Source of the DNA: Terriglobia bacterium
GTDB lineage: Bacteria > Acidobacteriota > Terriglobia > Terriglobales > Acidobacteriaceae
Reading direction: 5' to 3'
Length of the DNA stretch: 64,000 nt
Assembly (NCBI GenBank): GCA_020073665.1
Contig: JAIQEU010000014.1
Location: 105,432-169,431 of the forward strand
Part shown: piece after piece, positions 13,448 to 19,307 of the stretch
Layout: the number at the start of each line of letters is the position of its first letter
How positions within the stretch are numbered: position 1 is the first letter of the stretch
Made by a program: the position numbers and the translations under genes
The notes under the pieces: model-generated
What the model was told of the DNA's origin: nothing
Databases searched by the model: none
What the model saw: the letters and a program-made list of their open reading frames with translations, nothing else

Positions 13448-14671
13448 CTACACCGAGCGCACCGATGTCGAATCCACCGTCCGCACCTGGGCCCCCGCCT
13501 TGCAACAAGCTCCCGGCGGTATCGGCGACCCATGCGGACAAGTCCGCGGATGCCCCAAAAACGTACAAATCTTCTCCGTCGCCTCATGCGACAAAATATG
13601 CTCGAACTTGCAAGCCTGCTGTTCAATCTCTGATTCGCTGTCCAGGGCCAGGCTGTCGGTAAACAGCCGCTCGGCCAGCCGGTGCCGTCGGATAATATCT
13701 GCCGCGCGCTGCCGCCCGCGCTCCGTAAGCTCCACAATCATGCTCCCGTCGCCAACCGACACCCCCGCGGGCTTCAAAGCATCATGACAGGGATTCACAA
13801 ACGGCTTGTGATCATGCGCCTCCGGAGGATGCGGCGTCGCCGTGACCAACTCCAACGCCACCATCTTTTCCACGGCAATACTCACTGGCAGCGCGCCATG
13901 CACTTCCATGCGCCCAATCTCTGCCAGCTCGCCATGCTCCTCCAGCGCCCACAACTCTTCCAGCACTTCGTCGAACTGCTCCTCATCGGCCATGGAGAAA
14001 ACTTCCTGCGCCGCAATCTTGCCGTGATGCAACTCAATCCGCCGGTCCGCCAGCCGCGCCACCACCGGATCGTGGGTTACCATGACGATGGTCCGCCCCT
14101 GCTGGTGCAGTTCGCGTAACAGCCGCAACACAATTTCTTCGTTCTGCGCATCCAGGTTACCCGTAGGCTCATCTGCCAGCACGATCCGAGGATCATTGAT
14201 CAGCGCCCGCGCAATGCATACTCGCTGCTGTTCGCCGCCCGAAAGCTGAGAAGGAATGTGATGCGCCCGCGTCTTCAGCCCCACCCGCTCCAACGCATCC
14301 AGCGCTTCGTTCTGGTCCGTCATACTATGGAAATACTGCGCCAGCATGACGTTCTCCACCGCCGTGAGGTAAGGAATCAGATGAAACTGCTGGAACACAA
14401 ACCCGATCTTCTCCGCTCGCACCCGGTTCAAGTCCGTGGCCGAGAGCTTGGCAACATTCTCATTGTCCAGCCAGATCTCGCCCTCATCCGGACGATCCAG
14501 ACACCCAATCAGATTCACCAGCGTAGATTTCCCCGAGCCCGAAGGGCCCATGATTGCCACCCACTCGCCGGGATCCACGGTGAGGGTGAAATTATCGAGA
14601 GCGCGGATGACGCCGCCATTGTGTTCGGCCCGGGCCGGATACAGCCGGCTGACATTCTTCAGCTTGATCAT
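13448..14671 (-). CDS. ABC ATPase fused to a DtxR-type metalloregulator
   Basis: A 407-residue fusion. Residues 1-226 are a LolD/MacB-type ATPase: Walker A GPSGSGKST (42-50), Q-loop FQQ near 93, signature LSGGEQQR (143-150), Walker B IVLADEPT (163-170), switch His200. Residues 227-385 are a DtxR/MntR-like repressor: a winged-helix-like region (232-275), TERGRQRAADIIRRHRLAER (316-335), the CxxEH ligand set (C354, E357, H358), H330/E334 of the second metal site, and the PHGSPIP end motif (379-385). A Cys-rich tail follows. It is the last gene of the iron operon, 2 bases after the preceding permease. The junction is continuous in frame, with no stop. M227 has its own Shine-Dalgarno (see 14002-14007), so a free 181-residue regulator may also be made. 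Inference: ATPase of an iron transporter with built-in metal sensing. Confidence 0.9.
   Translation of the reverse strand: MIKLKNVSRLYPARAEHNGGVIRALDNFTLTVDPGEWVAIMGPSGSGKSTLVNLIGCLDRPDEGEIWLDNENVAKLSATDLNRVRAEKIGFVFQQFHLIPYLTAVENVMLAQYFHSMTDQNEALDALERVGLKTRAHHIPSQLSGGEQQRVCIARALINDPRIVLADEPTGNLDAQNEEIVLRLLRELHQQGRTIVMVTHDPVVARLADRRIELHHGKIAAQEVFSMADEEQFDEVLEELWALEEHGELAEIGRMEVHGALPVSIAVEKMVALELVTATPHPPEAHDHKPFVNPCHDALKPAGVSVGDGSMIVELTERGRQRAADIIRRHRLAERLFTDSLALDSESEIEQQACKFEHILSHEATEKICTFLGHPRTCPHGSPIPPGACCKAGAQVRTVDSTSVRSV
13991..14007 (-). promoter_or_regulatory. internal Shine-Dalgarno and ATG at the DtxR boundary
   Basis: On the minus strand AGGAAG (14002-14007), an 8-base spacer, then ATG (13993-13991), which is codon 227 of the fusion and begins MADEEQFDEV. 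Position coincides exactly with the end of the ATPase domain and the first helix of the regulator. This would allow internal initiation and production of a stand-alone regulator. Confidence 0.5.
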
Positions 14672-17084: not shown

Positions 17085-18335
17085 CTAGGGCTGCTGGAAG
17101 TAGTGGGCCCCGCCCGCTACTTCCGCCTCCGTGATGATGACCGCGTCGCTGGTGACCGTGGCCTTCAACGGAATCGGATTGCAGCCACCGGCGATGCCCA
17201 CCGACTGCGGATTGATAGGAGCCGCACAGTTCTTGCAGACCACGCCATTCGGTCCCTTATAGAAACCCACCGGCCCGCAAATCTCACAAGCGTCAAGCAG
17301 GGTGGCAATCTTGCCGTCAGGCTTCTGATAAATCCAGAAACGCACCGTGGTACCGTTTTCATTGGCGGAGAAGCGATGCAGGTCGCCGTCATACACCTGG
17401 TTCAAGGGAATGCTGACCTGGCCGTTCACAAAGGTGACCTCGGTGGCCGGGGACAACTTGCTGGCGCTCTTGGCGTAAACAAATTCTGCGGTCACCATAA
17501 CGATAAACAGAAACGAACTGGCATACACCGAGGCCATCCACAGCCGCTCCCGGCGCGCCGTCCACATAACCTTTCGGCGCTCCGCTGGGGATGCCGGCAC
17601 CACCGCCGGTTCGCGCCGCTTGATCTCCAGCAGCACCATGAACGCGGCCAGCGCAAATATGGTCACGAAGAAGAAAATGTCATTGCGCACGATGGGCCCA
17701 ATGATGGCCATCTCTTGCTTGGAAGAGGGAAGTACGCCGTTTTCCGAAAGTTCGTGCAGGCCGGTGATCACCAGCTGTCCCGCCACAAAAAACAGGATCA
17801 CGGTCGTGACCTTGAAGAATTTCTGCAGGTTGATTCGCACCGTGCCCTTGACGAACACCACTCCGAACAGGATGGCCACCGCCACGCCCAGCACCGTCCC
17901 GATCATGCTCAGCAATTCGGTCGAATTCAGAGACACCACCGAGAGGAACAGGACCGTCTCGACCCCCTCGCGCAGCACCAGCAGGAACACGAAAACGAAC
18001 AACCCGAACCAGGCGTCCTGACCGGCCAGCAAGCCCACCTTGCCTTCGATCTCGCCCTTGAGCTTCCGCCCGGTCCGCATCATGAACACGATCATGGTGA
18101 CCACGAAGAACGCCCCGGCCAGCATGATCCAGCCTTCGAAGATGTCCTGGTTCCATTGGGTACGGGACAGCAGGATGGCCACCCCGATGCTGCCGACAAA
18201 CGCTGCCCCCAAGGCGGCATAGACCGACTGGCGCAGTTCGGGGCGGTTGATTTTGGCCAGGTAGGCCAGGGTGATGCCCACAATCAGGGCCGCTTCCACT
18301 CCCTCCCGCAAGGTAATAATGAACGCCTCAAGCAT
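17085..18335 (-). CDS. FTR1-family iron permease fused to DUF2318 domain
   Basis: A 416-residue membrane protein. The FTR1 part (residues 1-240) carries the two REGxE iron-translocation motifs, REGVEA (10-15) and REGVET (about 122-127), in the first and a later TM. A further TM near residue 275-295 leads to an extracytoplasmic DUF2318-type domain with two CxxC pairs (CEIC and CKNC near 350-375) and a Gly-Cys-Asn-Pro end motif (GGCNPIP). In other bacteria FTR1 and DUF2318 are often separate adjacent genes; here they are joined. First gene of the operon, 24 bases downstream of a Fur-like box. No P19-type or EfeO-type iron-binding protein is encoded in the operon. Confidence 0.9.
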   Translation of the reverse strand: MLEAFIITLREGVEAALIVGITLAYLAKINRPELRQSVYAALGAAFVGSIGVAILLSRTQWNQDIFEGWIMLAGAFFVVTMIVFMMRTGRKLKGEIEGKVGLLAGQDAWFGLFVFVFLLVLREGVETVLFLSVVSLNSTELLSMIGTVLGVAVAILFGVVFVKGTVRINLQKFFKVTTVILFFVAGQLVITGLHELSENGVLPSSKQEMAIIGPIVRNDIFFFVTIFALAAFMVLLEIKRREPAVVPASPAERRKVMWTARRERLWMASVYASSFLFIVMVTAEFVYAKSASKLSPATEVTFVNGQVSIPLNQVYDGDLHRFSANENGTTVRFWIYQKPDGKIATLLDACEICGPVGFYKGPNGVVCKNCAAPINPQSVGIAGGCNPIPLKATVTSDAVIITEAEVAGGAHYFQQP

Positions 18336-18357: not shown

Positions 18358-18377
18358 TGAAAATGAATTTCAATTTC
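18358..18377 (-). promoter_or_regulatory. Fur-like box upstream of FTR1 operon
   Basis: On the minus strand GAAATTGAAATTCATTTTC (18377-18359) matches the 19-bp Fur consensus at 14 positions, and TGAAATTCATTTTCA is a near-perfect 7-1-7 inverted repeat. The box lies about 22 bases before the start codon and so would overlap the promoter or leader. A DtxR-type protein could equally be the ligand-binding regulator here, given the fusion in the operon. Confidence 0.65.
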
Positions 18378-18602
18378 AACTAGTTAAGGATAGCCTTCCC
18401 CCGCCGCGGGCGTCAACGCGCGAAGTCACGAATGGATGTGATTTGCATCACACGGCGAAAAGCAGCATTGAGCGGTTCGCAGGCGGCATTCTGCCCCGTG
18501 GGTTCTTGCCGGCGAAACGCAAGCCTCAGGTCAGCGCCCGAGGCTAAGCCCCAATGGCGCACCGGGACAGCGCAAGCGGGCCAGTGCCCTGAACGCGAAG
18601 AG

Positions 18603-19307
18603 CTAAAAGCTAAGAGCTAATAGCTTTTCTTTCAAAAACCTCCGCGCTTCCTCCAGCCGTGGGAATAGCATCTCCTCCGCCTGGAACTCCGTCGAGTGCA
18701 CGCAGCGCCGGCTGCCCCGCAGTTTCACCGGATGCTTCAGGTGCAGCATCTCGTGATACACGATGTACTCCACCGCATAGCTCGGCACCCGGGGATGGTC
18801 AAAAACTCGGCTGACCACGATGGCATTGTGGGCGGGATCGTAATGCCCCAGCCGGTGGCGGGCGTGGTCGCGGCTCCAGGTCATTTGCGGACGCGCCAGC
18901 AGGCCGTGAAAGAAGCGCGCATTCAGTTGGTCAAAGATGGATTCCAGATTGTAGGCGTGCCCTTGGGCTGAAGCGATGCGTTTGCGTCCCCGCACTTGCC
19001 GCACCAGGTGCGCTTTGGTCACCAGATCGTGGCTGGAGAGATACCGCCGGTAGCGCGCGGAATGCGCCCGTTCAATCGGCTTGCGGTACATCTTGGCCAG
19101 CAGGATGTGGGCCAGGGCGCGCAGCACTGGTTCGGGGGCGCCTTCCAGCAGGTCCGACAGCCGCACCCACAGCTTTCCTTCCCGCAGCCGGATGGTGTTG
19201 TTGATGTTGGCGTAGGCAAAAAACTCTACCGCGAGATCCGGGATCGGCGTTCGCGGACGCAATTCGCGATAGGTTTCCTGAAAAATTGGCAGCAGACGCT
19301 CTCTCAC
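18603..19307 (-). CDS. SprT-like zinc metallopeptidase
   Basis: A 234-residue cytoplasmic protein. The HExxH metal site is YHEMLHLKHP near residue 180, with a downstream His (CVHSTEFQAEE) that would be the third ligand, as in the SprT/Spartan-like group and the YgjP-type hydrolases. The central part is basic (RGRKRIASAQGHAYNLE), which suits nucleic-acid contact. No signal peptide. It is alone on its strand and is followed by an AGCTAAAAGCT-rich spacer. Function is inferred from the motif only. Confidence 0.75.
   Translation of the reverse strand: MRERLLPIFQETYRELRPRTPIPDLAVEFFAYANINNTIRLREGKLWVRLSDLLEGAPEPVLRALAHILLAKMYRKPIERAHSARYRRYLSSHDLVTKAHLVRQVRGRKRIASAQGHAYNLESIFDQLNARFFHGLLARPQMTWSRDHARHRLGHYDPAHNAIVVSRVFDHPRVPSYAVEYIVYHEMLHLKHPVKLRGSRRCVHSTEFQAEEMLFPRLEEARRFLKEKLLALSF

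Follow-up and report, generated by a model that had tools for sequence, protein, structure and literature searches.

An ABC ATPase Joined In Frame to a DtxR-Family Module in an FTR1 Iron-Uptake Operon of Terriglobia: A Possible Iron Sensor on a Transporter Motor

The last gene of an FTR1 iron-uptake operon in a Terriglobia soil bacterium (assembly GCA_020073665.1, contig JAIQEU010000014.1, positions 105,432–169,431; hereafter the window, i.e., the whole 64,000-nucleotide stretch analyzed) encodes an ATP-binding cassette (ABC) ATPase that continues in frame into a DtxR-family module, a joining that is kept in several families of the phylum. We tentatively read this module not as an operon repressor but as a predicted built-in iron sensor that would restrain the transporter's own ATPase at high cytosolic Fe(II), and give this reading just short of an even chance. 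So read, the module would be comparable to the C-terminal tails of MetN and ModC, namely an allosteric iron-sensing domain on a transporter motor. If true, a sensor sitting covalently on the motor of an iron importer would put iron uptake under direct post-translational control; the fusion also suggests that a repressor fold has been reused without DNA binding. The first-pass annotation, made from the sequence alone, knew of no such arrangement among described systems, and we likewise found no published description of an ABC ATPase-DtxR module fusion in the literature searched, which covered a minority of subscription-journal papers.

Architecture of the Fused Protein

The first-pass annotation had described an ATPase fused in frame to a full DtxR-type metalloregulator at the end of an FTR1 operon. 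The open reading frame (ORF) and Pfam bear out the fusion, with an ABC ATPase at residues 1–225 passing with barely any linker into a DtxR-family module at residues 227–390, and with matches to ABC_tran (residues 25–170, 128 bits) and to PF02742 (Fe_dep_repr_C; residues 316–385, 92 bits against a cut-off of 27). The position as last gene was likewise borne out, the order on the minus strand being FTR1-FtrD, permease A, permease B (both FtsX-like), and then the fusion (Table 1). Only the word "full" did not hold; the metal-binding and dimerization domain is there, whereas the DNA-binding domain PF01325 was unmatched and neither an SH3 nor a FeoA domain was found in the window protein via Pfam.

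The ATPase half displays a Walker A motif at residue 42, LSGGE at 143, LADEP at 165, and VTHD (H-loop) at 198, i.e., it carries the ATPase motifs looked for in an ABC ATPase with a substrate-sensing C-terminal domain, and the structures closest to residues 1–225 are MJ0796, MacB, and LolD. Given that the 50 Foldseek matches listed for a model of the full-length protein were ATPases throughout, the regulator half was modelled alone, which yielded a DtxR fold (predicted local distance difference test score 85, predicted template modelling score 0.81).

In a DtxR/IdeR numbering that we take to be residue 10, C102, E105, and H106, the primary ligands of the metal site are present, with E235 in place of Met10 and with C354, E357, and H358 retained. 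All of the residues singled out earlier (H330, E334, C354, E357, H358, and PHGSPIP, the last at 379–385) were found where the first-pass annotation had put them. We aligned 45 fused sequences (the window's and 44 of the 93 described below, thinned at 88% identity, one cut sequence omitted) with 14 related Feo-type proteins, and E334, C354, E357, H358, C369, H374, C378, H380, C389, and C390 were invariant over both sets; within the fused set, E235 and E238 were each conserved in 44/45 and H330 in 42/45. The Feo-type proteins were picked by a pattern demanding RLAE, EH, and either CPH or CPQ, so in that set these residues do not count as independent evidence; C369 and the CC pair lie outside the pattern and do.

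The Cys-rich tail (residues 369–390) is invariant in 59/59 aligned module sequences, and its C369, C378, and CC pair are absent from the five canonical regulators compared. A His/Cys-rich insertion in the wing (residues 281–296) is nearly invariant in Terriglobia and gapped in nine fused proteins of other classes and in the 14 Feo-type proteins. These four additional cysteines, together with the insertion in Terriglobia, could also mean that the half takes or buffers imported iron, or that C369, C378, C389, and C390 bind zinc or an iron-sulfur (Fe-S) cluster; the half would then pass its cargo on, or would signal the Fe-S status of the cell instead of free Fe(II). However, Pfam reported no cluster-binding family in the window protein, and the DtxR ligand set, also kept, points to Fe(II) sensing; we regard such a role as quite improbable.

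Distribution of the Fusion

The fusion is in frame in 93 of 95 loci holding both parts (91 distinct sequences), a count that draws on 80 named loci and 30 further ones, in which two contigs appear twice and the window itself contributes one copy; the two loci not in frame are L077 and L085, of which L085 sits at the end of a contig. The named loci are the 80 kept of 105; each title names Acidobacteriota, Terriglobia, or a taxon within them, and an FTR1 operon of the window type was found again in them as far as the contigs extend. The possibility that an assembly or sequencing error joined two genes, named at the outset as what might undo the finding, was rejected on these counts; the two out-of-frame loci are all that was found in its favor, the window ORF has no stop and no frame change, and we give it practically no chance.

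With residues 221–407 as the query, at least 6896 proteins were returned at E ≤ 0.001 among 7998 scored candidates, and ABC_tran and Fe_dep_repr_C occur together in all 120 relatives listed of these. The regulator half was matched in 230/396 Acidobacteriota genomes. In seven of them, belonging to one family, the match runs over nearly the whole half (59–100% identity), and in the remainder it lies mainly over the metal-binding part; the partial matches include further ABC fusions in other families, Feo-type proteins, and canonical regulators, with a canonical regulator found in 6 of the 12 regions fetched.

The module is not universal in operons of this type. Among 53 full-length or nearly full-length FTR1-FtrD genes, counted by us (that of G215 in two pieces), the ATPase ends in a DtxR module in 22 and plainly in 23 (21 of the latter from one heavily sampled genus), the contig ends before the ATPase in six, and the remaining two have another Cys/His tail (G291) and a degenerate DtxR-like tail (G200). 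A module-free ATPase is present in 22 sister operons. In a tree of 44 ATPase domains, rooted at its midpoint and with long branches, unfused and fused Terriglobia form sister groups, the other-class fused sequences branch outside them, and three state changes occur; one early fusion with losses and two gains cannot be told apart by this tree.

In a same-type operon (L202:119–1135, minus strand), the C-terminus of the ATPase is an unrelated Cys/His tail (CPNCG..HEH), which may be a different metal sensor in the position of the DtxR module. The ATPase at L209:4211–5242 has a degenerate DtxR-like tail that has lost the His and C-x-x-E-H ligands to other residues.

DNA Binding and Promoter Control

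The first-pass annotation had suggested that the regulator half acts on the operon's own promoter. No match to PF01325 was obtained with a limit of E 10, either in the window half or in five other fused proteins, HMMER's filters dropping most matches above ~0.1; the family profile has a three-residue gap relative to IdeR in this region, and helix 2 of the helix-turn-helix is not formed in the model of the half. The charge of the winged-helix part has a median of −9 in the 93 fused proteins (range −13 to +3), −8 in the 7 of 14 Feo-type proteins that could be parsed, and −3 in the five canonical regulators. When split by origin, the median is −10 in 84 fused proteins from Terriglobia and −2 (range −4 to +3) in nine from other classes; acidity was therefore rejected as a general trait of the fused winged helix and is instead a trait of the Terriglobia form, the window's included.

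Upstream regions were scored against the Fur box (threshold ≥14/19 positions) and DtxR box consensus sequences. Readable DNA upstream of FTR1 is available in 58 of 81 fused Terriglobia loci (the out-of-frame L077 among the 58), and a Fur-like box occurs in 46 of these 58 compared to 4/580 shuffles, with a promoter of the form TTGAC..TAT(C/T)CT in 52/58. In the fused operons of other classes, the FTR1 match is preceded in 11/15 by a same-strand fur match that ends 6–110 bp away (in L118, the fur match lies on the opposite strand), and a Fur-like box is present in 2/15; the Pfam FUR family was confirmed in the three upstream fur genes tested. The DtxR box reached the threshold in 0/58 fused Terriglobia, 0/22 unfused, and 0/15 other-class operons. 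In keeping with a Fur site, the Fur-like box also precedes a fur gene in L226 and, in a genome lacking the fused gene (L228, G492), marks the start of feoA, with feoB next in line. One unfused locus (L179) retains both box and operon.

The 22 unfused operons (21 distinct upstream regions) have an IscR-like palindrome in 18 and a Fur-like box in one, so the absence of the DtxR module is accompanied by a different promoter element. This IscR/Rrf2-like palindrome, e.g., GACCAATTTAGTC, lies in the promoter region upstream of FTR1; the sister operons are L176-L195, L211, and L212.

Across 120 genomes of the family, the Fur-like box was found in 67 and the reversed control in 0. Box and fused gene were both present in 45, the box only in 22, the gene only in 13, and neither in 40 (Fisher p 3.7e-6), where gene presence is a match to the half at E < 1e-30, a few being cut by contig ends; two of the 22 box-only genomes (G456 and G466) carry pieces of the fused gene at contig ends.

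Several points weigh against a sensor that acts on the ATPase and not on DNA. The winged-helix fold is still DtxR-like in the model, and the segment is nearly invariant among close relatives and therefore has some function. Its charge is near canonical in the nine other-class fused proteins, acidity not being general, and the segment over which charge was summed is longer in Terriglobia (median 80 versus 49 residues in other classes). The IdeR Q43A variant shows normal DNA binding (accessible part of PMC8464063), so missing base-contacting residues do not by themselves prove that DNA binding is lost, and the absence of Gln43 was dropped as an argument. Both the box/gene association and the single box of the source genome, at the FTR1 operon, would also be given by an autoregulator. 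In addition, 12/58 operons have no Fur-like box at the threshold, H330 is Gln in 3/45 fused sequences, and, for the permease/ATPase part of the related Campylobacter system, substrate and direction are stated to be unknown in the accessible part of PMC6083913.

Much of this, together with the fused protein being the only PF02742 protein of its genome, speaks for a bifunctional protein whose metal-loaded DtxR half, either still attached to the transporter or released, would repress the promoter of the operon. Such a protein would, however, have to bind through a domain that PF01325 does not match, and at a box that is not of the DtxR type at the threshold used; the box is instead Fur-like, found at fur and feoA/feoB and kept in the unfused L179, and the source genome has three Fur proteins. 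We consider autoregulation unlikely, and the proposed action on the operon's own promoter was not upheld; the recognizable DNA-binding domain is lost, and a Fur-like box or an adjacent fur gene stands in place of a DtxR box.

Proposed Mechanism and Known Systems

Under the iron-sensor reading, two different permeases served by a single ATPase gene would require two ATPase copies and hence two DtxR modules per transporter. Binding of Fe(II) would pair the two modules, and the paired modules would hold the ATPase domains fixed and inactive, a trans-inhibition as by the substrate-binding tails of MetN and ModC. Iron sufficiency in the cytosol would in this way switch off the transporter's ATPase, with transcription of the operon left to Fur. 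Metal binding, metal identity, stoichiometry, pairing, sign, and mechanism are predicted here, and we are least sure of the sign of control, which we take to be inhibition and not activation. The linking of transport energy to metal sensing within a single polypeptide, proposed at first pass, stands as anatomy, the sensing itself being a prediction.

The C-terminal domains of ABC ATPases are thought to control the association of ATPase domains upon ligand or protein binding (accessible part of PMC7367683, also for the following comparisons). As in MetN and ModC, the regulatory domain in the window protein comes straight after the ATPase, one per subunit; unlike their ferredoxin-like and TOBE domains, it is a predicted metal sensor of a transcription-factor family, and its partners are FtsX-type permeases rather than a classical importer. 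A handshake between tails, as seen in MlaF, and the dimerization domain within the half would also fit a structural handle that merely holds two ATPase subunits together around a structural metal site. A regulatory-type metal site is strictly conserved, though, and sister ATPases manage without the module, which leaves the handle decidedly doubtful.

Compared to DtxR, IdeR, and MntR, the module shares the metal-binding and dimerization domain, the fold, and the primary metal ligands, but it sits behind an ATPase, its DNA-binding domain is unrecognizable, it has an extra Cys tail, and no SH3 domain was found.

The Campylobacter jejuni 1649-1656 system has a Fur box upstream, and deletion of 1651-1656 leads to iron sensitivity (accessible part of PMC6083913, on which this paragraph draws throughout). 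This FetMP-type system and the window operon share FTR1, a DUF2318 domain with CxxC-x13-CxxC-x14-C, the upstream Fur box, and an identical order of two permeases and then one ATPase. They differ in that FTR1 and DUF2318 form one protein in the window, in that no P19 match was found in the source genome, and in that the window's ATPase carries a DtxR module where theirs is termed a cytoplasmic ATPase; we found no mention of Acidobacteria or DtxR in that text. The window operon works like an FTR1/P19 system but is not classed as a member, given no PF10634 match in the source genome. The widespread FTR1/DUF2318/FtsX system has a puzzling ATPase and a substrate that is stated to be unknown; if the sensor reading holds, that ATPase would gain a link to metal sensing.

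The Feo-type proteins (DtxR_C plus FeoA by Pfam) carry the same Cys-rich module and adjoin a FeoB-like gene, recognized by motif and length only, in L125, L127, L128, L130, and L133; the ORF heuristic showed no module or FeoB pair in L126 and L132. In contrast to the window fusion, these proteins are not joined to an ATPase and have a FeoA domain at the C-terminus; three of five give weak, sub-threshold PF01325 signals. With their shared Cys-rich tail, they look like an atypical DtxR subfamily associated with iron transporters. It is conceivable, though somewhat below an even chance, that a repressor fold of the DtxR type, once a switch on DNA, now serves iron transporters as a gate operated by metal, fused to the FTR1/FtsX ATPase and, in a sister form, joined to FeoA beside FeoB. 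The added Cys cluster would let uptake be shut off within seconds according to the iron or Fe-S status of the cell, with the genes left to Fur.

Operon and Host Genome

Table 1. Coordinates of the fused gene, its parts, and associated operon features in the window.
Feature	Position	Strand	Remarks
ABC ATPase-DtxR module fusion gene, 407 aa	13448..14671	minus	ORF read, Pfam
ATPase part, residues 1-225	13997..14671	minus	MacB/LolD-like, catalytic motifs present
Diverged winged-helix part, residues 229-315	13727..13987	minus	carries E235/E238, net charge -15
His/Cys-rich insertion in wing, residues 281-296	13784..13831	minus	
Metal-binding + dimerization domain (Fe_dep_repr_C), residues 316-385	13517..13726	minus	
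Cys-rich tail, residues 369-390	13502..13567	minus	C369, HP, CPH, IP, G, CC
FtsX-like permease B, 387 aa	14673..15836	minus	
FtsX/MacB-like permease A, 415 aa	15833..17080	minus	
FTR1 iron permease fused to FtrD-like (DUF2318) domain	17085..18335	minus	REGVE x2, CxxC-x13-CxxC-x14-C
Fur-like box TGAAATTGAAATTCATTTTCA	18358..18378	minus	sole such site in source genome within 2 mismatches
Promoter-like TTGACG-N18-TATCCT	18387..18416	minus	

The FTR1-FtrD protein matches PF03239 (128 bits) and PF10080 (99 bits), and its Cys motif agrees with the published one. In the source genome (5.42 Mb, 62 contigs), we found no second PF02742 protein, no second FTR1, and no clear FeoB, its FeoB_N matches being weak (best 63 bits, frames ≤623 aa), whereas FeoB in L228 scores 161 bits.

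Upstream of the −35 box lies a palindrome, TGTGATGCAAATCACA (18437-18452, minus strand), which we presume to be CRP/FNR-like. The form TGTGAN6TCACA occurs in 15/58 fused Terriglobia operons and a relaxed form in 32/58, with both in 0/22 unfused and 0/15 other-class operons. Further upstream of the operon, an ORF at 18603-19307 (minus strand) has a metalloprotease-like HEMLH motif, and a similar ORF lies upstream of FTR1 in L223.
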